IMG/VR virus record: IMGVR_UViG_3300035691_000014 | Location: 1 to 38,795 of that record | Length of the DNA stretch: 38,795 nucleotides | Strand: one strand, 5' to 3' | Source of the DNA: a virus | Part shown: positions 5,237 to 36,276 of the stretch, in pieces | How the letters are laid out: every line of letters begins with the position of its first letter | Numbering within the stretch: the first letter of the stretch is position 1 | The notes under the pieces: model-generated | The model's input: only the letters and a program-made list of their open reading frames with translations | The model's database searches: none | What the model was told of the DNA's origin: nothing | Made by a program: the position numbers and the translations under genes

Positions 5237-5455
5237 ATGACTGGTCTTACCGCGCGCGCCCTGGTTCGCGCTGGGCTCGGGCTCGACCGACAACCGTTGC
5301 CCCGTGCGCCGGACCGAGATCCGGAATTCCCATGCCCGTCGAGAGCATTCGAGGCTGGCGAGCCGGCGGGCGACTGCGACACCGACGGGCACTACATGTG
5401 CGCGGAGTGCGTGAACTGCCGACCCGGGGTGCTCGAGGAGCGATATCAGCCGTGA
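5237..5455 (+). CDS. Small Cys-rich protein (72 aa)
   Basis: It starts 2 nt after the RHH stop and ends in a GTGA overlap with the replication gene. The N-terminal half is basic. The C-terminal half has CDTDGHYMCAECVNC, a probable one-zinc site with a C-x7-C-x2-C-x2-C pattern. Only a weak SD (AAGG) is seen, so it may depend on coupling. Family unknown; a DNA- or protein-binding knuckle is the likeliest reading. Confidence 0.65.
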   Translation: MTGLTARALVRAGLGLDRQPLPRAPDRDPEFPCPSRAFEAGEPAGDCDTDGHYMCAECVNCRPGVLEERYQP

Positions 5456-6324
5456 GCGCGCCGGTCCGCATCGAGGCGCGCGCATGGAGCGATCTTCGCT
5501 TCGCTACGCTCGCCCGGCTGCTCGGGCTGGCTGACGCCGATCACGCGCTGATCAAGGTCGCCCGGCTGTGGAGCTGGCAGACCGAGCACTTCGCCCCCGA
5601 CGCCCCGACGTACGAGGTCGACGCCGACACGATCGAGAGCGTGCTCGGCCCCGGCGGCCCGGCGGCCCTGGTCCGCGCCAAGCTCGCTGACGAGACCCTG
5701 ACCGGCTATCGGATCAAGGGGACCGAGGGCCAGATCGAGTGGTGCGACAACCTGTCCAGCAAACGCCAGCAAGCTGGACGAGCGCGGGCCGAGGGCGCAC
5801 GCCGTGACGCGAAAGGTAGGCTGCTGCCGCACTATTCTGGTGAGCAAGAAGACAATTATCCAGCACACGGTCCAGCAAACCACCAGCACGCGTCCAGCGC
5901 TCAACCAGCAAGGTCCAGCGCTCCGTCTCCGTCTCCGGCTCCGTCTCCGGAAGAAGATCTAGAAGCCGGTTCGCCTGACGCCGAACCGGCCGATCCACCG
6001 GCCGCGCCACTGAGGCTGCTTCCGGAGCCTCCGGTCAAGCGCCGGAAGAAGGCCAAGCACGACATGCCCGAGGACTGGCATCCGACGGCGCGCCAGCGCG
6101 AGACCTGTAGGCAGATGGGGCTCGACGTTGAGGATCAGGTGCGCCGGTTCAGAAACCACCACCTCGCGAAGGGCAACCAGTTCGCGAGCTGGGACCGGGC
6201 GTTCGACACGTGGCTCGACAACGCGCTGAGGTTCGCCGAGGGGACCCGCGCCGGCCCTCACAGCAGCGCGGCGCGCGCGAACCTGCCGCCCGAACGACCG
6301 AACCCGTTGCGACCGATGGATTGA
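5452..6324 (+). CDS. Phage replication initiator / helicase loader (DnaT-like C-terminus)
   Basis: GTG 5452 overlaps the preceding stop, giving 290 residues; the longer frame has no better start. Residues 1-110 look like a winged-helix-type domain (ARLLGLADADHALIKVARLW is one helix pair). About 120-200 is a low-complexity linker of Ala, Pro, Ser and Gln. The C-terminal part (MPEDWHPTARQRETCRQMG, QVRRFRNHHLAKG, ASWDRAFDTWLDNAL) matches the DnaT-like replisome-organiser domain that brings DnaB to the origin. Immediately downstream is the DnaB gene. The linker DNA carries phased repeats that resemble a lambda-O-type origin, so this protein probably binds within its own gene. Confidence 0.78.
   Translation: MSAPVRIEARAWSDLRFATLARLLGLADADHALIKVARLWSWQTEHFAPDAPTYEVDADTIESVLGPGGPAALVRAKLADETLTGYRIKGTEGQIEWCDNLSSKRQQAGRARAEGARRDAKGRLLPHYSGEQEDNYPAHGPANHQHASSAQPARSSAPSPSPAPSPEEDLEAGSPDAEPADPPAAPLRLLPEPPVKRRKKAKHDMPEDWHPTARQRETCRQMGLDVEDQVRRFRNHHLAKGNQFASWDRAFDTWLDNALRFAEGTRAGPHSSAARANLPPERPNPLRPMD
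5754..5925 (+). repeat. Iteron array inside the initiator gene, candidate replication origin
   Basis: CCAGC starts at 5860, 5872, 5883, 5894, 5905 and 5915, spaced 12, 11, 11, 11 and 10 bp, so all face one side of the helix. Since the spacing is not a multiple of three, a peptide repeat cannot explain it. GTCCAGCAAAC occurs exactly twice (5754 and 5870) and GTCCAGCGCTC twice (5892 and 5913). At 5754-5779 GTCCAGC is also mirrored by GCTGGAC. An AT-richer stretch (5829-5860) adjoins the array. Lambda-type origins have the same layout. Confidence 0.62.
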
Positions 6325-6327
6325 CGC

Positions 6328-7692
6328 ATGAACACCGACGACAACAAACGCGCGCTCCTCTCCCTGGAGGCCTCGATCCTCGGGGCGATCCTTGTCGACA
6401 ACAGCGTCCTTGCGCAGTTCCCGACGCTCGAGGTCGTGGACTTCTTCGACCTGCGCCATCGGGCCGTGTTCGCGGCGGTGCGGAACCTCGAGTCCGCAAA
6501 CCAACCCATGGATCCGGTGACCGTCGAGGTGGAGCTCGCGAAGTCCGGCAAGCTGGACGCAATCGGGGGGCCTGGGTTCCTCGGCGAGCTCGCGCTGCAT
6601 GTCCCGACGACCGAGAACGCCATCGAGTACGTGCGGCAGATCCGCAACGCCTCGCTCGGTCGACGGATCCGACTCGTCGTGAGCGAGCTACTTGAGCAGG
6701 ACCCGAACGACGGCGCCGAACTGCTCTCGATGGCGTGGTCCGCGCTCTCGAAGCTCGACGAGGACCAGCCGGACGCTACGCGGTCCATCTCGGACCTGGT
6801 GCGCAAGCGGTTCAAGCAGCTCGAGCAAATTGCCCAGGAGCGCGAGAGCGGCGTACGGACGATGACCGGGTTCCCGACCGGCGTCGCGGGGCTCGACGAG
6901 AAACTTGGAGGGTGGCAGCCCGGAATCGTGAGCATCGTCGCAGCGCGTCCTGGGATGGGGAAGTCAAGCCTCGGGCTCGCGACCGCGCGCGCGGCATCGG
7001 AAGCGGGCTTCGGGGTCCACGTGTTCTCGCTCGAGGACACGGAGGACGCGTACGCCGATCGCTCGCTGTCGGGGGAGAGCGACGTTCCAGCCGAGAACCT
7101 GCGCAACGCCGCGCTGAATCGCGGGCAGATGAGCGACCTCACCAAGGCGTTCGTGAACCTGCGCGGCCGGCGCTGGGTCATCGACGACCGGAGCGGGATC
7201 ACCGCCGACGAGATCGTGCGCTCGGTGCGTCGGCACAAGCGGACGAACCAGACGCGGGTGGTTATCGTCGACTACGTGCAGCTCGTCGCACGCCCCCGCG
7301 GCTCCCGGCTCTCCCGCCACGAGGAACTGACCGAGATCGTGACCACGCTGGCCAACGCGGCGAAGCACGACGGCATGGCCTACGTGGTCATGAGCCAGCT
7401 CAACCGCGAGCTCGAGAAGCGGAGCGACAAGCGCCCACAGCTCGCTGACCTGCGCGAGAGCGGATCGCTCGAGGAGCGCGCCAAGTGCGTCGTCGGCATG
7501 TACCGCGGCTCGATCTACGGGTCTCCGGTGCGCGGCGTCGACTGGGACCCAACCTGGGGCGGTGACCTGTCGTTCGAGCCGACGCGCGACGCGTTCACGC
7601 GAACCGCGCAGCTCTGCGTGCTCAAGAACAGCAACGGGAGAACAGGGCTCGTGTTCGCGAACTGGGACGGGTCCCTGACCAAGGTCTGGTGA
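6328..7692 (+). CDS. dnaB: Replicative DNA helicase, DnaB family
   Basis: The 454-residue protein has an N-terminal DnaB domain (SLEASILGAILVDNSVLAQF, short N-terminal helical hairpin) and a RecA-like C-terminal helicase domain. Walker A is ARPGMGKSS (about 206-214, Lys212), Walker B VVIVDYVQL (311-319), and the H3/H4 region is SQLNRELEKR followed by PQLADLRESGSLE. It forms a hexamer that unwinds DNA 5' to 3' at the fork. DnaB-typical FPTGVAGLDEKLGGW precedes Walker A. It follows the initiator/loader by 3 nt, consistent with joint expression. Length is normal for the family. The LRESG-x-E segment is retained, although the usual following QDAD is altered to ERAK. Confidence 0.95.
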   Translation: MNTDDNKRALLSLEASILGAILVDNSVLAQFPTLEVVDFFDLRHRAVFAAVRNLESANQPMDPVTVEVELAKSGKLDAIGGPGFLGELALHVPTTENAIEYVRQIRNASLGRRIRLVVSELLEQDPNDGAELLSMAWSALSKLDEDQPDATRSISDLVRKRFKQLEQIAQERESGVRTMTGFPTGVAGLDEKLGGWQPGIVSIVAARPGMGKSSLGLATARAASEAGFGVHVFSLEDTEDAYADRSLSGESDVPAENLRNAALNRGQMSDLTKAFVNLRGRRWVIDDRSGITADEIVRSVRRHKRTNQTRVVIVDYVQLVARPRGSRLSRHEELTEIVTTLANAAKHDGMAYVVMSQLNRELEKRSDKRPQLADLRESGSLEERAKCVVGMYRGSIYGSPVRGVDWDPTWGGDLSFEPTRDAFTRTAQLCVLKNSNGRTGLVFANWDGSLTKVW

Positions 7693-10359: not shown

Positions 10360-10581
10360 TCAGCGGTCAGGATCGTACGCTGTGTATCTATCGCGGTACG
10401 CGCGAACCGGACGCGCCGGCGGGCGTGGTGCAGACTGGGCTGCGCAGACCTCTATGAGCGTCATCTCGCTCTCGTCGACACCCGCATTCGTTGCCGCGAC
10501 GCGGCGGGCGGTTGCCTCGTCCGCGGCAGAAGCACTCCAGTACTGTTTGATGGTGATATCGCAAGAAAATGTATAGACCAT
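10360..10581 (-). CDS. Small hypothetical protein (73 aa)
   Basis: The protein begins MVYTFSCDITIKQYWSASAA, then DEATARRVAATNAGVDESEM and ends in a basic Pro/Arg tail. The first half is a plausible beta-alpha fold, similar in style to small phage proteins with a strand, a helix on Ala-Asp-Glu residues and a second strand. No family. It starts 4 nt after the preceding stop with no strong SD. Confidence 0.65.
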   Translation of the reverse strand: MVYTFSCDITIKQYWSASAADEATARRVAATNAGVDESEMTLIEVCAAQSAPRPPARPVRAYRDRYTAYDPDR

Positions 10582-13152: not shown

Positions 13153-13961
13153 AGTCCTACCCACCAGCCTCCGAGATGTCGCCGGACGACCTGCTTGAGC
13201 TGTGCGCTGAGTTCGGGCGCAACCCGGCGTTGAGCTACGACCTCGCGGGGTCCCGCGAGCACCTCGAGACCGTGTGCCGGCTGGTGGTCCAGCAGGCGCA
13301 GGACCTGAGCGCCCGCACCGAGGAGCGCGATCAACTCAAACGGGACGAGCGACGCAACCTCGACCACATCGCGCGCGCCGAAGCGGTCGCGGGAAGTCTG
13401 CACGGGGAACTCGCAACGGTATCCGCTGCGGTGCTCGCCACCGAGCGCGACAACCGCGCGCTGCAGCTCCAGGTCGCCGCGATGACCAACGAGCGCGACC
13501 GCCTGGCCGCTGACCTCGACCAGGCCCGCAACGCGTGGCAGGCCGACATCCTGCTCCGCGACGCCGCCGAGGGGCGCAGGGAGGACGCCGAGACGACGGC
13601 GATGCTCTGGCAGACCATCGCAGACCGCGCGCTGCAGGACGCCAAGCGCGTGCCGGCGGAACAGCTCGTGGTCGACGCCGGGCTCGACTTGTCGCGCGCG
13701 CTGGTCGTCGAGCAGCGCCAGCACGCCAAGACCCGGGCCGAGCTCGCCAAGGCGTTGCGCCGGCTCGAGGAGAGCCAGCAGACCGTGGCGCACAACGACG
13801 CGCTGCACAGCGCGTTCTCGGGGGCCTGCGAGGCGGTGACCGGGTACTCGGTCGCCGAGGTCAACCTCCAACTCGACGCCGAACTCGCGGCGCACCCGGA
13901 ACCTGGCCCGCTGCACCACGCGCGGGACCAGCGCGATCATCAGGAGGACACGACGCCATGA
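13149..13961 (+). CDS. Long coiled-coil protein (270 aa)
   Basis: GTG 13149 overlaps the previous stop. After a 35-residue start (SPDDLLELCAEFGRNPAL) most of the protein is heptad-rich helix: ERDQLKRDERRNLDHIARAE, TERDNRALQLQVAAMTNERD, DLDQARNAWQADILLRDA, TRAELAKALRRLEESQQTVA. A long dimer or trimer rod is expected. No catalytic motif. Similar rods occur in phage scaffolds, tape-measure segments and SMC-like accessory proteins, but it is too far from the head genes to be called one of those. Confidence 0.7.
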   Translation: MKSYPPASEMSPDDLLELCAEFGRNPALSYDLAGSREHLETVCRLVVQQAQDLSARTEERDQLKRDERRNLDHIARAEAVAGSLHGELATVSAAVLATERDNRALQLQVAAMTNERDRLAADLDQARNAWQADILLRDAAEGRREDAETTAMLWQTIADRALQDAKRVPAEQLVVDAGLDLSRALVVEQRQHAKTRAELAKALRRLEESQQTVAHNDALHSAFSGACEAVTGYSVAEVNLQLDAELAAHPEPGPLHHARDQRDHQEDTTP

Positions 13962-14497
13962 TCACACCGAGACTGTTACGGGAATGGAATGCGTGCTGGA
14001 CCGATGAGGCGATCAGCGCGCGTATCTGCGATGCCGGTATCTCGCCGCGTGACGTCGCGACTGACGAGACGATCTCGCTCGACGATCGGCTGTGGGTGCT
14101 ATGCCGGTCGCTCTGGTACCTCGACGAGTCGGCTGCTCGCAGGTTCGCGATCGAGTCCGCGATGCTGGTCTCGCACCTTGCCGGCGACGAGGATGATCAA
14201 GCGCAGCACGCCGCGCTGTGCGCGCACCTGCTGGAGATCGAGGATCTGCCGGAAGATCAGAGGGCCGCCGCCAGGGCCGCCGCCAGGGCCGCCGCCTGGG
14301 ACGCCGCCTGGGACGCCGCCTGGGACGCCGCCAGGGCCGCCGCCTGGGCCGTCGCCAGGGACGCCGCCTGGGACGCCGCCAGGGCCGCCGCCAGGGCCGC
14401 CGCCAGGGCCGTCGCCTGGGACGCCGCGATCCGCAAGGCAATCGCTCGTGCGCTGGACTGGCTCGGCGAATATGCCGACGGATGGGAGGAGCCATGA
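13958..14497 (+). CDS. Protein with Trp/Arg-stripe tetrapeptide repeats (179 aa)
   Basis: ATG 13958 with CAGGAGG upstream. Residues 1-100 are a plain helical domain (RLLREWNACWTDEAISARIC, DRLWVLCRSLWYLDES, AMLVSHLAGDEDDQAQHAAL). Residues about 103-154 are thirteen 4-residue units of the type (A/D)-(A/V)-A-(R/W), encoded by 12-bp repeats. A period of four on an alpha helix places Trp and Arg as a slowly turning stripe. The last 25 residues (IRKAIARALDWLGEYADGWE) are a further amphipathic helix. AAWDAA-type repeats occur in scattered bacterial and phage proteins of unknown function. Copy number could change by slippage. Confidence 0.72.
   Translation: MITPRLLREWNACWTDEAISARICDAGISPRDVATDETISLDDRLWVLCRSLWYLDESAARRFAIESAMLVSHLAGDEDDQAQHAALCAHLLEIEDLPEDQRAAARAAARAAAWDAAWDAAWDAARAAAWAVARDAAWDAARAAARAAARAVAWDAAIRKAIARALDWLGEYADGWEEP
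14264..14419 (+). repeat. 12-bp coding minisatellite, 13 units
   Basis: Thirteen units of (GCC or GAC)(GCC or GTC)GCC(AGG or TGG) stand in frame without interruption and a fourteenth starts before GCGATC. Every unit keeps the third codon GCC and alternates Arg and Trp by A/T at one base. The near identity implies recent expansion or gene conversion. Confidence 0.9.
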
Positions 14498-16102: not shown

Positions 16103-16524
16103 TGCGGGAGTTCGTGAGCACGTGCTCGGCCTGCGGAGGGTTCGGTCACAACGCCGGGCCCGATGGGCTATGCTCGCGAACCTCGCTGGCGCTGCGCGAC
16201 TACGAGGCCGGTGCACTTGCACGCGAGGCGGCGGAGCGCCACGGGCTCTCGCCGGGCAGCATCTGGAGCGCGGCCTACTTGCTGCGCAAGCAGCCGGACG
16301 TCAAGGAGCAGCGGCTGATGGTCATCCGGTCGCGCGTGATGCGGCGCTGGTACCGGCTCCGCCAGCAGGCCTGGGTTCAGGCGATGGTGATGGAGAACGA
16401 TCGCCAGGCCGAGCCACCAGAGGTTTCCGAGCTGCCGCCGATCCCCACTGCCGGCGCGGACCATGCCGAGATCCCCGACCCGCCCGCCCTGCTCGAGGTC
16501 GGATGGCGGACCGGGCGGCGGTGA
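16102..16524 (+). CDS. Zinc-ribbon plus HTH protein, putative regulator (140 aa)
   Basis: ATG 16102 overlaps the preceding stop; GTG 16099 is an alternative. A CSACGGFGHNAGPDGLC zinc half (C-x2-C ... C) opens the protein. A helix-turn-helix follows, DYEAGALAREAAERHGLSPG with SIWSAAYLLRK as candidate recognition helix. A basic helix (RVMRRWYRLRQQAWVQAM) and an acidic Pro-rich tail finish it. This may be a DNA-binding regulator of the downstream genes, whose promoter region starts 2 nt after its stop. Confidence 0.6.
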   Translation: MREFVSTCSACGGFGHNAGPDGLCSRTSLALRDYEAGALAREAAERHGLSPGSIWSAAYLLRKQPDVKEQRLMVIRSRVMRRWYRLRQQAWVQAMVMENDRQAEPPEVSELPPIPTAGADHAEIPDPPALLEVGWRTGRR

Positions 16525-16525
16525 G

Positions 16526-16588
16526 CGCTACCCCATCGCTACCCCAGACGTACCCCACGACTGCGTGGGGAGTGGGTAGATTGAGGGC
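16526..16588 (+). promoter_or_regulatory. Iteron-bearing control element A of the ParB-like gene
   Basis: TACCCCA starts at 16529, 16540 and 16551, exactly 11 bp apart. Bases 16526-16554 recur exactly at 17323-17351. CCCCACG/CGTGGGG (16553-16570) forms a perfect 7-bp hairpin with a 4-nt loop. A possible -10, TAGATT (16577-16582), ends 6 nt before the ATG, so the message may be leaderless. No usable SD is seen. Confidence 0.65.
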
Positions 16589-16924
16589 ATGGACATCACG
16601 GTCACCCGCGGCAACATCAAGCTGTCGCAACTCACCGCTGCGCATCGACAGGAGGTCCGCCGGATCGCCGAAGTGGATCGGCCCGAGGCTTGCTGGGCGC
16701 TTGACCCCGAGGAGTGCCGCTACCTGACGATTGTCCGCCAGACCCCGACTGGGCTCGCGATCGTGGACGGATTCCATCGCCTCGCCGGGATGCTGGTGTT
16801 CGGGGCCGAACAGGTCCCGGTCATCGTCGTCGATGCCCCTGACGCTTTGCTCGCGACCATCGACTGCGATAGCGAGATCGGCAGCCACGAGGTACTCGAC
16901 GCCATCTACGCTGCTGCCGCGTAA
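16589..16924 (+). CDS. ParB/sulfiredoxin-fold (DGxHR) protein
   Basis: The 111-residue protein has ITVTRGNIKLSQLTAAHRQE, then AIVDGFHRLAGMLVFGAEQV followed by PVIVVD. This matches the ParB N-terminal/sulfiredoxin-fold core, with DGFHR (60-64) as the phosphate-binding motif. It lacks the ParB HTH and the dimerisation domain, so it resembles the short single-domain ParB-like proteins of phages. Plain ParB would bind CTP; the DGxHR form can also be a nuclease or kinase-like enzyme. No ParA is adjacent. Its promoter element with three 11-bp repeats is duplicated before the tail-anchored winged-helix gene at 17387, hinting at shared control. Function is not assigned. Confidence 0.72.
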   Translation: MDITVTRGNIKLSQLTAAHRQEVRRIAEVDRPEACWALDPEECRYLTIVRQTPTGLAIVDGFHRLAGMLVFGAEQVPVIVVDAPDALLATIDCDSEIGSHEVLDAIYAAAA

Positions 16925-16933
16925 GGAGACACC

Positions 16934-17197
16934 ATGACGATCACACGAATTACCGACCTGCCACTGCCCGCGTTCCGCCTGCGTCGCTCTACTCCGATGG
17001 GCTGCGTCCATCGCAAGGTCGACGCAGGCGGAACCTGTACCGGATGCGGGTACAGTGCGGCGCGCATCGCTGCGGACATCGAGGATGCACTCACTCGGTG
17101 GGGTGACCTGACCGAGCGATATTGGCCGGCCAACCTCGCCGAGTGCATCTGGGATGCTGCGAGTCAGGAGCGCGCCCACCACAACGCGAGGGATTGA
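16934..17197 (+). CDS. Small zinc-ribbon-like protein (87 aa)
   Basis: ATG 16934 follows AAGGAGACACC. MGCVHRKVDAGGTCTGCGYS supplies C ... H ... C-x2-C for one zinc. The following helix (AARIAADIEDALTRWGDLTE) and an aromatic end region are conserved-looking but not recognised. Likely co-transcribed with the ParB-like gene. Confidence 0.65.
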   Translation: MTITRITDLPLPAFRLRRSTPMGCVHRKVDAGGTCTGCGYSAARIAADIEDALTRWGDLTERYWPANLAECIWDAASQERAHHNARD

Positions 17198-17199
17198 CC

Positions 17200-17382
17200 A
17201 TGACCCCCGCCGAGCGCCTCGCGATTTACCTGGAGGTCGCCGCGCGTCTCCGGGCCACGGGCGAACGCGGCTCCGAGGTTGCAGCCCTGCTGGTCGAGCA
17301 GCTGGCGGATGAGCACGAGGACCGCTACCCCATCGCTACCCCAGACGTACCTGATGTCCAACCCCAATCGCGCGTAGGTTGA
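17200..17382 (+). CDS. Small helical protein whose 3' end carries control element B (60 aa)
   Basis: ATG 17200 after GAGGG. The helical part is ERLAIYLEVAARLRATGERG, then SEVAALLVEQLADEH. The last 20 codons are read through the duplicated 29-bp element (17323-17351), giving YPIATPDVPDV. So the protein's tail is dictated by a regulatory DNA sequence, suggesting that the element was inserted or duplicated here. Confidence 0.62.
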   Translation: MTPAERLAIYLEVAARLRATGERGSEVAALLVEQLADEHEDRYPIATPDVPDVQPQSRVG

Positions 17383-17386
17383 GCAC
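17323..17386 (+). promoter_or_regulatory. Control element B, second copy before the tail-anchored winged-helix gene
   Basis: Bases 17323-17351 match 16526-16554 exactly and include two 11-bp-spaced TACCCCA sites. A similar distance downstream, TAGGTT (17375-17380) lies 6 nt before the ATG, as TAGATT does in element A. From repeat to ATG the distance is 64 nt here and 63 nt in A. Such matching spacing implies a shared promoter architecture. Confidence 0.65.
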
Positions 17387-18211
17387 ATGAAGAACGCACT
17401 CGACACCGCCAGCATCGCCAGCCTCATCCTGTCCGCGCTCGTCTCCGACGACGCCCAGACCGCGCGCGATCTCGCGGTCGCCATCGGCACCACCGCCGCC
17501 GCGCTCCGCCCCGCGCTCCGCCGGCTGGTCGAGAGCGCCGACGTGGTGACCTCAGGTCGCGCCGGCGCCACGCGCTACGTCCTGGCCGTGGTCGAACTGG
17601 TCGAGCCCGCCGGCACTACGCATCGCACCATGACGCTCGGCGATGGCTCGCAGGTCGTGTTCACGCGGCTGCCGTCGGCCAAGGACCCGATTCCGGCGCA
17701 GCCGGTAGCACTCGAGGTGAGCGCCGCGGTCCAGCAGCAGCGCGCCGAGCGCATGAGCACCGCCAGCCTGGTGCTCGCGGACGAGGAGCCGGCCACCAAG
17801 CCGATCCGCACGCGCCCGGCTCGCCCCGTCATCGCGGCCACGGTCGATGTCCTGGGCGCCCTCGAGCAGACCGCGGCGCGCCTCGCTGCCGGTGCCACGC
17901 TGCCCGAGCTGAGTGCCCGTCAGGCCCCGCCGCGTGTCGTCATCGCCGAGCTGGCTGCCGAGGTGGGGACGCTGCTGCCTGAGCCGCCGCCTACCAGCCC
18001 CAGCTCGCCGGTGCTGCGTCGCGAGTGCGCCACGCCTACCGAGGACGTCGCGGCCCGCCAGCTGGCCATGCAGGAGAGCGAGGTGCGCGCCGAGGCCTGG
18101 GATGCGCGGGTGGAGCGACAGAGCCGTCGCCAACAGCTCGCGCTGTCCCTGGTCAGCGCCGTGATGATGCTCGCGCCCGTCGCCTGGGTCGTTGCCCACC
18201 TCGCGCGCTGA
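17387..18211 (+). CDS. Winged-helix protein with C-terminal membrane anchor
   Basis: The 274-residue protein has an N-terminal winged-helix-like domain (SIASLILSALVSDDAQTARD, LAVAIGTTAAALRPALRRLV, DVVTSGRAGATRYVLAVVEL; about 1-70). A disordered Ala/Pro/Arg linker spans about 90-240. A hydrophobic helix (LALSLVSAVMMLAPVAWVVA, about 253-272) ends 3 residues before the C-terminus. It therefore looks like a tail-anchored inner-membrane DNA-binding protein, which is rare in phages. Its promoter element is a copy of that before the ParB-like gene. Tethering phage DNA to the membrane or membrane-coupled transcription control are the two readings. No signal peptide. Confidence 0.68.
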   Translation: MKNALDTASIASLILSALVSDDAQTARDLAVAIGTTAAALRPALRRLVESADVVTSGRAGATRYVLAVVELVEPAGTTHRTMTLGDGSQVVFTRLPSAKDPIPAQPVALEVSAAVQQQRAERMSTASLVLADEEPATKPIRTRPARPVIAATVDVLGALEQTAARLAAGATLPELSARQAPPRVVIAELAAEVGTLLPEPPPTSPSSPVLRRECATPTEDVAARQLAMQESEVRAEAWDARVERQSRRQQLALSLVSAVMMLAPVAWVVAHLAR

Positions 18212-19220: not shown

Positions 19221-19714
19221 CGAGACTTTGCGATTGCTCAGGGCCGCACGCGCCCTCCACGGACCCGAACGTGATCCACATGGACCGCTGGGTGATTCAC
19301 AAGTACGCCGAGCGTGGCATCACGGTCGAACCCGACGGCGTCATGCGCATGTCACCCCGGGCCGCAGCGGTCTACGAGGGGTTCACTCGGGCGGTGGGGG
19401 ATGCGTTTGCCCCGCGACCAGGGATCCTCACGCCGGTGGTCGCGCGGACCATCGACGAGCGCGACTGCGAACCGCTGCGTCCCGAGGATGCGGACTGGGG
19501 CGAGGATGGTCCGGTAATGGGCAGCGACCGCATCTCGTGGGTCCGTGTCAGCGACGAGGACGAGGCGCCAGCCCTACTCGCCGCAGCTCGCGCGCGTGTC
19601 GCGGAGCTCGAGGCGGAGAACGCGGCCCTCCGCGCTGGGCTGGATTCGAGGGACGAGACGATCGCACGCTTGACTCGGCGGCTGCACGGGCTGGAGATGG
19701 AGATCACCCCATGA
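19217..19714 (+). CDS. Hypothetical protein with C-terminal coiled coil (165 aa)
   Basis: ATG 19217 after GGAG. The N-terminus has LCDCSGPHAPSTD, possibly one half of a metal site. The middle is acidic (RPEDADWGEDGPVM), and about 35 C-terminal residues form a Leu-zipper-like helix (VAELEAENAALRAGLDSRDE, TIARLTRRLHGLEM). Family unknown. It overlaps the next start (ATGA). Confidence 0.65.
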   Translation: MTRLCDCSGPHAPSTDPNVIHMDRWVIHKYAERGITVEPDGVMRMSPRAAAVYEGFTRAVGDAFAPRPGILTPVVARTIDERDCEPLRPEDADWGEDGPVMGSDRISWVRVSDEDEAPALLAAARARVAELEAENAALRAGLDSRDETIARLTRRLHGLEMEITP

Positions 19715-20085
19715 CCTGGTCACCAACCCCGACCCGCAAGCACACCGAGGTCACCCCGCTGGACACGCGCGGGCCCAAGCGCCTGTGGGACGCGCCGGCG
19801 GGCGTGGTGCAGCGCCACCGCGGCGACACGGGCCGCCTGGTCAAGCACGACTACCTGTGCCCGGTGCATGGCCGGTTCGAGATCGAAGTGCCCGCGAGCG
19901 ACGCGCCGGACGAGGTGCTCTGCCCACTGTGGTCGGATTCGTCGCCGATGGCGATGGTCGAACGACTGCTGACATCTCCGGCGGATGTCGTCGAGTCCGT
20001 GGCGGCCGCTGTCTGCGGTCAACCCTCCCCCTGGTCCCCGTCCACGTTCGGGATCTGGGCCAGCGCGGGGGAGGTGATGTCTTGA
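19711..20085 (+). CDS. FmdB-like zinc-ribbon protein (124 aa)
   Basis: ATG 19711 overlaps the previous stop. HDYLCPVHGRFEIEVPASDA, then DEVLCPLWSD, has the CP-x-HG ... CP layout of short FmdB/zinc-beta-ribbon proteins, though the fourth ligand is not clean. The C-terminus (MVERLLTSPADVVESVAAAV) is a helix. Function unknown. Confidence 0.62.
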   Translation: MTWSPTPTRKHTEVTPLDTRGPKRLWDAPAGVVQRHRGDTGRLVKHDYLCPVHGRFEIEVPASDAPDEVLCPLWSDSSPMAMVERLLTSPADVVESVAAAVCGQPSPWSPSTFGIWASAGEVMS

Positions 20086-25836: not shown

Positions 25837-26051
25837 GCGAGCGCTGTCCGTTCTGCGACCGGGACACGGGAGGCCAGCGCGGGCACATCACGCCGCGCAC
25901 GTTGCCGGTCGATGTGTCGCTCAAGCTGTTCACAGTGCCGGTCACGCCTGACCTGAAGACGTGGATCGACGTGCGGACGTGCAAGCGGCCCGAGTGCCGC
26001 TACGCCGCGCGGACGTTGCCGCTGGACCGCATTCCAGAAGCAGGGGCGTGA
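25833..26051 (+). CDS. Small zinc-finger protein next to terL (72 aa)
   Basis: GTG 25833 overlaps the previous stop. ERCPFCDRDTGGQRGH and VRTCKRPECRYAARTL give C-x2-C and C-x4-C pairs. A two-pair zinc ribbon fits. It directly precedes terL, where a small terminase or DNA-binding packaging factor often sits, but it has no HTH. Confidence 0.65.
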   Translation: MSERCPFCDRDTGGQRGHITPRTLPVDVSLKLFTVPVTPDLKTWIDVRTCKRPECRYAARTLPLDRIPEAGA

Positions 26052-28000
26052 CCCGCGGGCACGCGGTTACGCTCCTCGTCCTCATCCTCGCCATGGCCCA
26101 CCTACCCGCCAGCGGACGCGACGTCCTCGCAGCCCTCGGAGCCAAGCGGCCGGTCGAGACCGACGCCGGGCGCGCCGCGGAGACCCAGACCGCCACCGCT
26201 CTGCTGCGGTCCATCTACGCGCCGAAGCAGGCCGCGTTCTTCCGGCCCGGCAAGCCCTGGAAGGCGACTCGCAAGACGCGCCGCGCCGGCATCACCACCA
26301 TCGGCGTGCGCGAGCTATTGGCGCGCTGCATCGAGACCCCAGGGTATCGCGCCACGTACTTCGCGAGCACCCGAAAGGAGGCTGAGGATCGCGCTTGGAG
26401 GTCCGACACCAAAAGTGGTCTCGTCGATGTGCTGCTCAAGCTCGCCGAACCCGTCGACCACCCGACGCTCCAGGCGTACAAGCTCGGCGGCGTCACCATC
26501 GAGGTCCGCGAAGGTGACCTCAAGCTCGTGTTCTCGAACGGCTCCGAGATCGAGCTGTTCGGCGTCGACAACCAGCGCTCCCATCGAAAAAAGCGCGGCG
26601 GCGCCAAGCACCTGATCTGGATCGACGAGGCGCAGGACTTCGCGCTCCTCGAAGAGTTCTTCGACGCGGTGATCGTGCCGATGTCGGACTTCGGCATCGA
26701 GGTCTGGATGACCGGGACCCCCGGCGTCGACTGCGCCGGCATGTTCTACGAGATCACCAAGGAGCCCGAGGAGGGCGAGGAGCCTCTATCCGGCTGGGAC
26801 GTCCACACGCTCGCCCAGGTCGACAACCCGTTCTTTGGTCACGTCGTGGACTCGACCGATCCCGAGGGCCGCACGGTCTACTACGTCGAGGACAACCTCT
26901 ACGCTGACTCGCGGCTCTCCGCGGAGAAGCGCGCGGCACACCGCTACGGCCCGTTTGATACCACGGCCGACGCTGAAGCCGAGGCAGTGCGCGTGCGATG
27001 GGAACAGACCGCCGGCGAGGCGATGCGCGCCAAGGGCTGGAAGGGCGACGAGCCCCAGTTCGTGCGCGAGTTCCTCGGCAAGTGGGTCAAGGAGGACGCG
27101 CGCTATGTCTACCCGGTGCACGGTCGGCCGAAGCACGATCTGTTCTTCGCGCCGCAGCGCCTGTGCCCGAACCCGTTCGTCGGCACCGATCCACGCTTCG
27201 ACGGCCACCCACCCTGGTACGATCACCACGCTGCGGTGCGTGACCTGCCGCGGCTCGGTCGCGACCGACGGCCGCACGAATGGCTCTACTCGCTGTGGTT
27301 CGACTTCGGCTTCTGGCCTGACCCGTTCGCCTGCGTGCTGTGGGCGTTCACCACGACGCTGAACCACGTCTACGAGATGTTCAGCTGGAAGCAGACGAAG
27401 GTGCACGCCGACGATCAGGCCAGGTACATCAGGCTCCTGTGGGACGTCGAACCGGCGATCGTGTCGTTCGGCGGAGATTCCGCGGGGAAAGAGGCCGACT
27501 TCGCCGAGTGGAAGCGTCGCCTCAACCTGCCACTGGAACCAGCGAACAAGCAGGGGAAGGAGACGCTCGAGGAGCTGCTAGCGGGCGACATTCGCGGCGG
27601 GCTGGTCCACTTCCGTGATGGCTCGCCGGTCTACAAGGACAAGGACGGCAAGCCCTTGCAGTCACCGCTCTACACCGAGATGCGACACCTGACCTACCTG
27701 CCGACGGCACCGGGCAAGCCGCGCAAGGTCCACAAGCACCGCAAGGTCAACGGCGTGGTCCATGGTGATCACTGCTGTGACGCGGGGCGCTATGGATTCG
27801 CAGACCTGACCCACTACCTGTCGAAGCTTGCGTCCGACAAGCCCCAGCCCGGCTCCCGCGAGGCGTACGCGGCCGAAGAGGAGCGCGAGCAGCGCGCGAT
27901 CGAGAACGCCGAGCTCCGCCGCGCCCGCGAGATGGCTGAACACGACGAGCTTGCGCGCGAGTACGGCGGCGGTGATGATGCGGGGTACCCATGGCAATAA
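26048..28000 (+). CDS. terL: Terminase large subunit (ATPase-nuclease)
   Basis: GTG 26048 overlaps the previous stop (650 residues, AGGGG upstream); ATG 26093 (635 residues) would remove an odd hydrophobic leader. The packaging motor's ATPase shows RKTRRAGITT (75-84) in place of a classical Walker A. Its Lys is at the front, as in the deviant lambda gpA motif KSARVGYSK. Walker B is LIWIDEAQD (189-197), and the coupling motif TGTP is at 222-225. The nuclease part has LWFDFGFWPD (Asp419), GGDSAG (Asp477) and HGDHCCDA (Asp574 and 578). It cuts concatemers and drives DNA into the procapsid. Eleven small genes separate it from the portal. Confidence 0.88.
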   Translation: MTRGHAVTLLVLILAMAHLPASGRDVLAALGAKRPVETDAGRAAETQTATALLRSIYAPKQAAFFRPGKPWKATRKTRRAGITTIGVRELLARCIETPGYRATYFASTRKEAEDRAWRSDTKSGLVDVLLKLAEPVDHPTLQAYKLGGVTIEVREGDLKLVFSNGSEIELFGVDNQRSHRKKRGGAKHLIWIDEAQDFALLEEFFDAVIVPMSDFGIEVWMTGTPGVDCAGMFYEITKEPEEGEEPLSGWDVHTLAQVDNPFFGHVVDSTDPEGRTVYYVEDNLYADSRLSAEKRAAHRYGPFDTTADAEAEAVRVRWEQTAGEAMRAKGWKGDEPQFVREFLGKWVKEDARYVYPVHGRPKHDLFFAPQRLCPNPFVGTDPRFDGHPPWYDHHAAVRDLPRLGRDRRPHEWLYSLWFDFGFWPDPFACVLWAFTTTLNHVYEMFSWKQTKVHADDQARYIRLLWDVEPAIVSFGGDSAGKEADFAEWKRRLNLPLEPANKQGKETLEELLAGDIRGGLVHFRDGSPVYKDKDGKPLQSPLYTEMRHLTYLPTAPGKPRKVHKHRKVNGVVHGDHCCDAGRYGFADLTHYLSKLASDKPQPGSREAYAAEEEREQRAIENAELRRAREMAEHDELAREYGGGDDAGYPWQ

Positions 28001-35565: not shown

Positions 35566-36276
35566 ATGCTGAGCGAAACCCATCTCTCCGAGGTCGGCAA
35601 CTTCAACTCCGAGGTCACCGGCCAACTGCGCCCGGCCCTCGGCGGCGGCATCGACGCGGTCTCCGCGGCCGGCGCGTGCGATCTCACCAAGTACCTCACC
35701 GAGCTCACCATCTCTGGGACGAAGGCGTACACGCTCGCCGCGCCCACCGTGGCGGGCCAGCGCAAGCGGGTCCGGTGCGTCTCTGCGGCGAGCACTCCGG
35801 CCGGCACGCTGACCGTGTCCTCGCCCGACGACACGACCGGCTTTGTCTGTCCGGCAACGTTCTTCTTCGACAACGTGGGGCAGACGATCGAATTCCAGGC
35901 CACCACCGGGCTCAAGTGGCGCTGCATTCAGAAGATCCGCACCGGCGTCAAGGCGATCGTCATCGGCACCACGGTGCTCACCGGCATCTGCGACATGAGC
36001 CACGTGGACGTGTCGGTGACCGGGACCGTCGCGTCCACGTCCACCAAGGCCCTGCCCAACGGCGCTGCGATCGGCGAGATCTGCGCGATCACGTGCAGCA
36101 CCGCCGCGAGCACGCCCCATGGCGACCTCGGCGGCACCTTCGTGAAGAAGGACGGCACCGAGACCGGCGTGCAGCTCGATGATTTCACGCTCGTGACCGA
36201 CATGGCGCTGATCATGTGGACCGGGTCGGCGTGGAAACCGCTGATGCTGACCGGCACCACCCTGACCATCGCGTGA
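35566..36276 (+). CDS. Beta-rich structural protein (236 aa)
   Basis: ATG 35566 is 4 nt after the previous stop with no good SD. The content is strand-rich and Thr/Ala-rich (KAYTLAAPTVAGQRKRVRCV, TVSSPDDTTGFVCPATFFFD, GTVASTSTKALPNGAAIGE, ALIMWTGSAWKPLMLTGTTL). WTGSAWKPLMLTGTTLTIA is a pattern of beta-propeller or tail/fibre-type repeats. A head decoration, tail-tube or neck protein is possible. Family unresolved. Confidence 0.6.
   Translation: MLSETHLSEVGNFNSEVTGQLRPALGGGIDAVSAAGACDLTKYLTELTISGTKAYTLAAPTVAGQRKRVRCVSAASTPAGTLTVSSPDDTTGFVCPATFFFDNVGQTIEFQATTGLKWRCIQKIRTGVKAIVIGTTVLTGICDMSHVDVSVTGTVASTSTKALPNGAAIGEICAITCSTAASTPHGDLGGTFVKKDGTETGVQLDDFTLVTDMALIMWTGSAWKPLMLTGTTLTIA

Follow-up and report, generated by a model that had tools for sequence, protein, structure and literature searches.

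Related elements in phages and bacteria

The nearest described counterpart of the element analysed here is the SAS/ESAS of the cluster K mycobacteriophages, a short conserved element that precedes the start codon in genes from various families, and in which the 13-bp SAS (GGGATAGGAGCCC) lies 3-9 nt before the start codon while the ESAS displays SigA-like -35/-10 hexamers 17-18 bp apart, a repeated motif and a 17-bp imperfect inverted repeat (PMC3203893, PMC11373665). The element of the present window, by which we mean the whole 38.8-kb stretch of DNA analysed (virus record IMG/VR IMGVR_UViG_3300035691_000014, here G000), similarly is repeated before various genes and has hexamers spaced by 17-18 bp. 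In contrast to SAS/ESAS, it consists of 7-bp direct repeats at 11 bp, places the -10 hexamer 6 nt from the ATG, in what would be a leaderless arrangement, and is common to unrelated phages together with a companion micro-ORF. The SAS sequence at 3-9 nt before the start codon was not found in the element copies, nor was an ESAS-type inverted repeat, since the inverted repeat of copy A is not kept in the others. Because the defining 13-bp SAS and inverted repeats are absent, the element is a distinct variant and not a member of SAS/ESAS.

Among mobile phage promoters, the closest counterpart is provided by the T4-type PeSL (promoter early stem-loop) cassettes (Arbiol 2010; Comeau 2014; both as cited in PMC4503421). 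The two systems share a promoter cassette conserved between phages with shuffled neighbouring genes, as illustrated by contigs G034 and G038, whose flanks are common and whose cargo is different; the right-hand partner in the present case is instead a coding micro-ORF, and the candidate promoter is leaderless with TACCCCA boxes. PeSL composites pair an early promoter with a terminator stem-loop; in the present element a promoter-like part is found, and no such stem-loop was noticed by eye beside it. Boxes of the PhoB/OmpR type are 7-bp direct repeats with 4-bp spacers, thus of 11-bp period, that replace the -35 hexamer. The 7+4 repeats of the present element run head to tail up to a weak -35 and display the same layout, although to our knowledge TACCCCA is not a known box of this family and no response regulator has been linked to it. 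Phage morons are additional genes lodged among those of the phage and equipped with a promoter of their own; the arrangement described here, which combines a shared promoter type, a conserved micro-ORF and exchangeable cargo, has more structure than is typical of a moron.

Source record and phage relatives

The large terminase encoded at 26048-28000 has 30 relatives in IMG/VR, no isolate match in INPHARED (tblastn) and no match in GTDB genomes at the sensitivity of the scan used. Several of the relatives are long or complete-looking, at ~58-60 kb, and the window is therefore probably a partial genome. Its closest relative is G001, with 84% terminase protein identity. WhiB, sought as an actinobacterial marker, is absent, and the relatives of DnaB and RecE are scattered over many hosts.

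The duplicated element of the window

An exact 29-mer is present at 16526-16554 and again at 17323-17351, with ~1e-7 exact 29-mer pairs expected at this composition. The window contains only one other non-tandem exact repeat of at least 20 nt, a 25-mer (GGACGCGCCGGCGGGCGTGGTGCAG) that lies outside predicted genes at 10409-10433 and inside predicted gene 19711-20085 at 19788-19812. The 29-mer starts 63 nt before the ATG at 16589 in copy A and 64 nt before the ATG at 17387 in copy B, in agreement with the distance of about 63 nt given for both copies in an earlier note made from this sequence. TACCCCA occurs seven times in the window against 0.74 expected, and its spacing of exactly 11 bp, with three units in copy A, is as that note had described; copy B has two units (Table 1). 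The string GTAG(A/G)TTGAG, also reported there, is present at both copies as GTAGATTGAG and GTAGGTTGAG, each ending 3 nt before the ATG; no other zero-mismatch match occurs in the window. The further proposal that TACCCCA is a binding site is retained, the heptamer being predicted as a probable protein-binding box. Copy A is intergenic, immediately past the stop codon at 16522-16524, and copy B sits within an ORF of 60 codons, at its 3' end. The two copies are alike in their 5' half only, with a third unit that reads TACCCCACG in A, against TACCTGATG in B. A hairpin in copy A (CCCCACG-ACTG-CGTGGGG) was dropped as a candidate operator because it is missing from the other copies.

Table 1 Coordinates of the two element copies and of the associated genes in the window
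Feature	Position	Strand	Description
Element A, candidate leaderless promoter	16526..16588	+	Three TACCCCA boxes, degenerate -35, -10 TAGATT, 6 nt, ATG; from direct sequence, aligned to the 16 further copies; first TACCCCA 60 nt before ATG
TACCCCA box 1 of A	16529..16535	+	~-60
TACCCCA box 2 of A	16540..16546	+	~-49
Box 3 of A / degenerate -35 position	16551..16559	+	TACCCCACG; TACCYGAYR in most other copies
-10 hexamer of A	16577..16582	+	TAGATT, 6 nt before ATG
Cargo gene 1, P0001	16589..16924	+	111 aa, ParB/Srx-like single domain (IVDGFHRLAGMLVFGAEQVPVIVVD)
Cargo gene 2, P0003	16934..17197	+	87 aa, CxxC-containing
Companion micro-ORF	17200..17382	+	MTPAERLAIYLEVAARLRATGERGSEVAALLVEQLADE..., 60 aa in the window; final third lies over element B
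Element B, candidate second promoter	17323..17386	+	TACCCCA x2, TACCTGATG, 18-bp spacer, TAGGTT, 6 nt, ATG; TACCCCA-to-ATG distance 61
TACCCCA box 1 of B	17326..17332	+	
TACCCCA box 2 of B	17337..17343	+	
-10 hexamer of B	17375..17380	+	TAGGTT
Cargo gene 3, P0002	17387..18211	+	274 aa; winged helix ~9-65, C-terminal TM helix ~251-269
Possible right-hand boundary of variable segment	18206..18289	+	79% identical to G001 36093-36179

Recurrence in other phage contigs

Beyond the window, seven or eight contigs of uncultured phages carry the element, giving 18 copies altogether. Element A is 86-88% identical over 64-70 bp to the elements of G001, G033 and G034; that of G001 (86% over 64 bp, with GTAGATTGAGGGCATG identical) precedes an unrelated 84-aa gene. 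Pattern scans of IMG/VR yielded the further copies of G031, G032, G033, G034, G035 and G039, together with G040/L261, the least certain of them. Seventeen copies were aligned, and the eighteenth (G039 34232), found separately, has weaker boxes and the same geometry. In the alignment, TACCCCA stands at positions 0 and 11 and is followed at 22 by TACCYGAYR, which merges into the -35 position, and then by a 17- or 18-nt spacer, TANNNT, 6 nt and the ATG. The first TACCCCA lies 60 nt from the ATG in 11 of the 17 copies and 61 nt in the remaining six, the extra base falling in the spacer in five of these. TANNNT is located exactly at -12 in 13/17 copies, the exceptions being G031, G032a and G035a, which are one base off, and G035c, which is shifted by one. 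The third unit is absent from G033a, L261, G035c and G035d, where TTGAC or TTGCAG is found instead.

A scan of the collection for the box spacing, the -10 and the ATG retrieved 10 contigs, two of which (L258 and L259) look like chance by context, against four contigs in a control scan with the -10 and ATG displaced by 5 bp. Strong PWM matches are confined to the element group. The exact promoter core has six scattered matches in bacterial genomes; the element has no match in INPHARED, and no publication on TACCCCA as a direct repeat emerged from a literature search. Tandems of TACCCCA across the viral collection are mostly unrelated to the element, several being near integrase-like ORFs or chance-like, and those at L098 159, L139 73, L142 193 and L150 359 are possible arm-type sites. 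The genes behind the element differ between contigs, and all-against-all blastp (E<=1e-6) revealed no gene family common to all contigs that carry it.

A candidate leaderless promoter

The element is likely to be a portable leaderless promoter of the sigma70 type, with regulator boxes in tandem upstream. In terms of sequence, the -10 hexamer lies 6-7 nt from the ATG and 16-18 bp from the -35 position, which is degenerate in most copies. Irrespective of TACCCCA, canonical sites of the form TTGA[CA]-N16-18-TANNNT placed 6-7 nt before an ATG are strongly enriched in these phages, with 14 in the element-bearing contigs against 0.4 in shuffles and 19 in the terminase relatives against 0.8 expected. 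One relative, G024, carries TTGACG-17-TAGGTT-GAGGGC-ATG, that is, the -10/start sequence of the window with a good -35 and without TACCCCA. The six bases before the ATG vary among the copies (gagggc, gagcac, ataaac and others), so that no conserved ribosome-binding site is present there. From this anatomy we infer promoter activity, with transcription starting at the ATG. In G033 (L242-L247) and G024 (L048-L050), many leaderless promoters display a palindrome TTGAC-N3-GTCAA over the -35, which is probably the operator of another regulator.

The mechanism that we propose is as follows. RNA polymerase would recognise the TANNNT -10 located 6 nt before the ATG together with the weak -35, and the transcript would begin at or beside the A of the ATG, resulting in a leaderless mRNA. 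Two to three TACCCCA boxes would occupy ~-60 and ~-49, and a third half-box would run into the -35; being 11 bp apart, the boxes lie on one helix face. A DNA-binding protein on the boxes would set the activity of the promoter, most likely as an activator contacting RNA polymerase, and could be encoded by the host or by some other gene. A host protein is plausible as the box binder given that no gene family common to all these phages was found at E<=1e-6.

Cargo genes

The earlier note had described the first gene as a DGxHR ParB-like protein and the second promoter-linked gene as a winged-helix protein with a single C-terminal TM helix. The former description stands in part: P0001 contains the motif as DGFHR and has a weak PHROG ParB-like match (E=0.006), confined to one weakly matched region with no match to a second domain or HTH, unlike ParABS proteins with a centromere-binding HTH and a C-terminal dimer domain, but ParB_N (PF02195) has no match in G000 at E<=1e-3. 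The latter agrees with our data, as P0002 gives a PHROG Ren-like match (E=1.4e-4) through its winged-helix-like N terminus and has one TM segment, at the C-terminus, with a hydropathy of 2.27. Single-sequence structure predictions, P0001 among them, were uninformative (pLDDT 47 and 50). The one relative found for either protein is that of P0002, which shares 60% identity over 43 aa, a short winged-helix match, with a 137-aa protein of G010, a contig without the element in which the gene for this protein carries a canonical leaderless promoter. Homologues of P0001 and P0002 were not found in the element-bearing contigs G001, G031-G035 and G039, nor by direct searches of IMG/VR and INPHARED, and P0003 has no relative among the contigs compared. 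Since neither P0001 nor P0002 recurs with the element, neither is the regulator common to all copies.

A conserved micro-ORF and a proposed exchangeable module

The micro-ORF that separates P0003 from P0002 belongs to a family (MTPAERLAIY..LRATGERGSEVAALLVEQLA) with ~40 conserved residues, whose other members are located at G001 35564, G031 60583, G033 93510, G034 26935, G038 1702 and G035 4427 (minus strand). All-against-all comparison placed the family near the element in five element-bearing contigs, and it was found in none of the element-lacking terminase relatives compared. The order element, variable cargo, micro-ORF occurs in six contigs including the window, the micro-ORF following the element on the same strand at a distance of 300-680 bp, and six of the seven contigs with the micro-ORF have a TACCCCA promoter ahead of it. 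Differences by codon position are 45/26/89 over 15 pairs. Because they fall mostly at third positions, the pattern suggests that the micro-ORF is probably translated. The family has no match in INPHARED and was not found behind the G032 elements; G039 has a very weak relative behind the cargo gene (E=0.017).

Three pairs of contigs (window/G033, window/G034 and G031/G034) share no DNA at E<=1e-8 other than the promoter (66-70 bp) and the micro-ORF (98-115 bp). The close relatives G034 and G038, with ~28 kb of alignable DNA, share a left gene and the micro-ORF while the intervening DNA is different, G038 having the micro-ORF without the element. Contig G035 displays the order of the window (promoter, cargo, micro-ORF, promoter, cargo) with a micro-ORF of 50% identity (E=6e-4) and no nucleotide similarity to the window at E<=1e-8.

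The promoter would thus often form part of a small exchangeable module that comprises the promoter, one or more variable cargo genes and the conserved ~40-aa micro-ORF. In the window such a module would consist of promoter A, the ParB-like gene, P0003 and the micro-ORF, followed by promoter B, which overlaps the micro-ORF end and would drive the winged-helix/TM gene as a second promoter-cargo unit. The presence of the module in otherwise unrelated phages suggests that they share a host and may have exchanged it by recombination. A more tentative proposal, which we regard as doubtful, is that promoter and ~40-aa micro-protein are the ends of a cassette traded by phages of the same host, with the micro-protein modulating the promoter or the cargo. 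The signature itself (TACCCCA x2 at 11 bp, with the ATG 60/61 nt from the first box and 6 nt from the -10) offers a means of finding putatively co-regulated small genes, is applicable to uncultured phages and links these genes to the conserved micro-ORF. If the reading is correct, phages with almost no other common DNA exchange cargo genes that carry a ready-made promoter, and the hidden regulator becomes findable.

Alternative explanations

The main rival, which we consider rather unlikely, keeps the promoter unchanged and takes the TACCCCA boxes as operators of a repressor, acting in lysogeny or early-gene shut-off. The boxes indeed abut or overlap the -35, two of them are kept in G033a and L261 despite a good -35 (TTGACG and TTGACC, respectively), and the palindromes over the -35 in G033 and G024 are operator-like. 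The poor -35 of most copies is nevertheless what activator-dependent promoters would have, repeats arranged head to tail at 11 bp are seen more typically at activator sites of the PhoB/OmpR type, and among the element-bearing contigs a tyrosine integrase is found in G031 only. The possibility that the exact 29-mer common to A and B reflects a recent local duplication or chance, with no function, is negligible, as the geometry is conserved in seven or eight other contigs, the expected number of exact pairs is minute and copy B keeps the family consensus TACCTGATG while copy A does not.

Two further explanations assign the element to a dedicated DNA-binding system, and both appear very improbable. 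In one, put forward in the earlier note, the ParB-like and membrane winged-helix proteins form a regulon of their own for DNA tethering or partition. An element copy ahead of both genes, the weak ParB-like and winged-helix similarities and the one strong TM segment of P0002 are in its favour, and the shared regulatory sequence would indeed co-regulate the two genes. Comparison across contigs largely refutes the wider claim: elsewhere, in seven or eight contigs, the element precedes different genes; in the seven contigs searched, the pair does not accompany the element, neither protein having a homologue there; and P0001 misses ParB_N. The absence of ParA that the note had pointed out agrees with our search, AAA_31 having no match in G000, probably a partial genome. 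In the other explanation, TACCCCA is bound by a recombinase or a replication initiator, at integrase arm-type sites or at an origin iteron, iteron being the term first given to the repeat. By eye, TACCCCA tandems of 11 bp occur in other phages just upstream of ORFs resembling the starts of tyrosine integrases, but these sites (in L098, L139, L142 and L150) do not have the -10/ATG geometry and the window contains no integrase. The elements are dispersed and oriented with genes, and the replication-initiation-like gene and DnaB (5452-7692) are ~9 kb off, with no adjacent initiator. The start-codon distance is fixed in 17/17 copies, and since the boxes hold a fixed distance to the -35, the -10 and the start codon, the element is not an iteron.

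Other features of the window

An array of 12-bp units (AGGGCCGCCGCC / TGGGACGCCGCC) extends over 14261-14428 inside predicted gene 13958-14497. The protein encoded at 20252-21625 matches cpYpsA, a circularly permuted SLOG domain, in Pfam (E=3.4e-20), and blastp identified its relatives in several other contigs.
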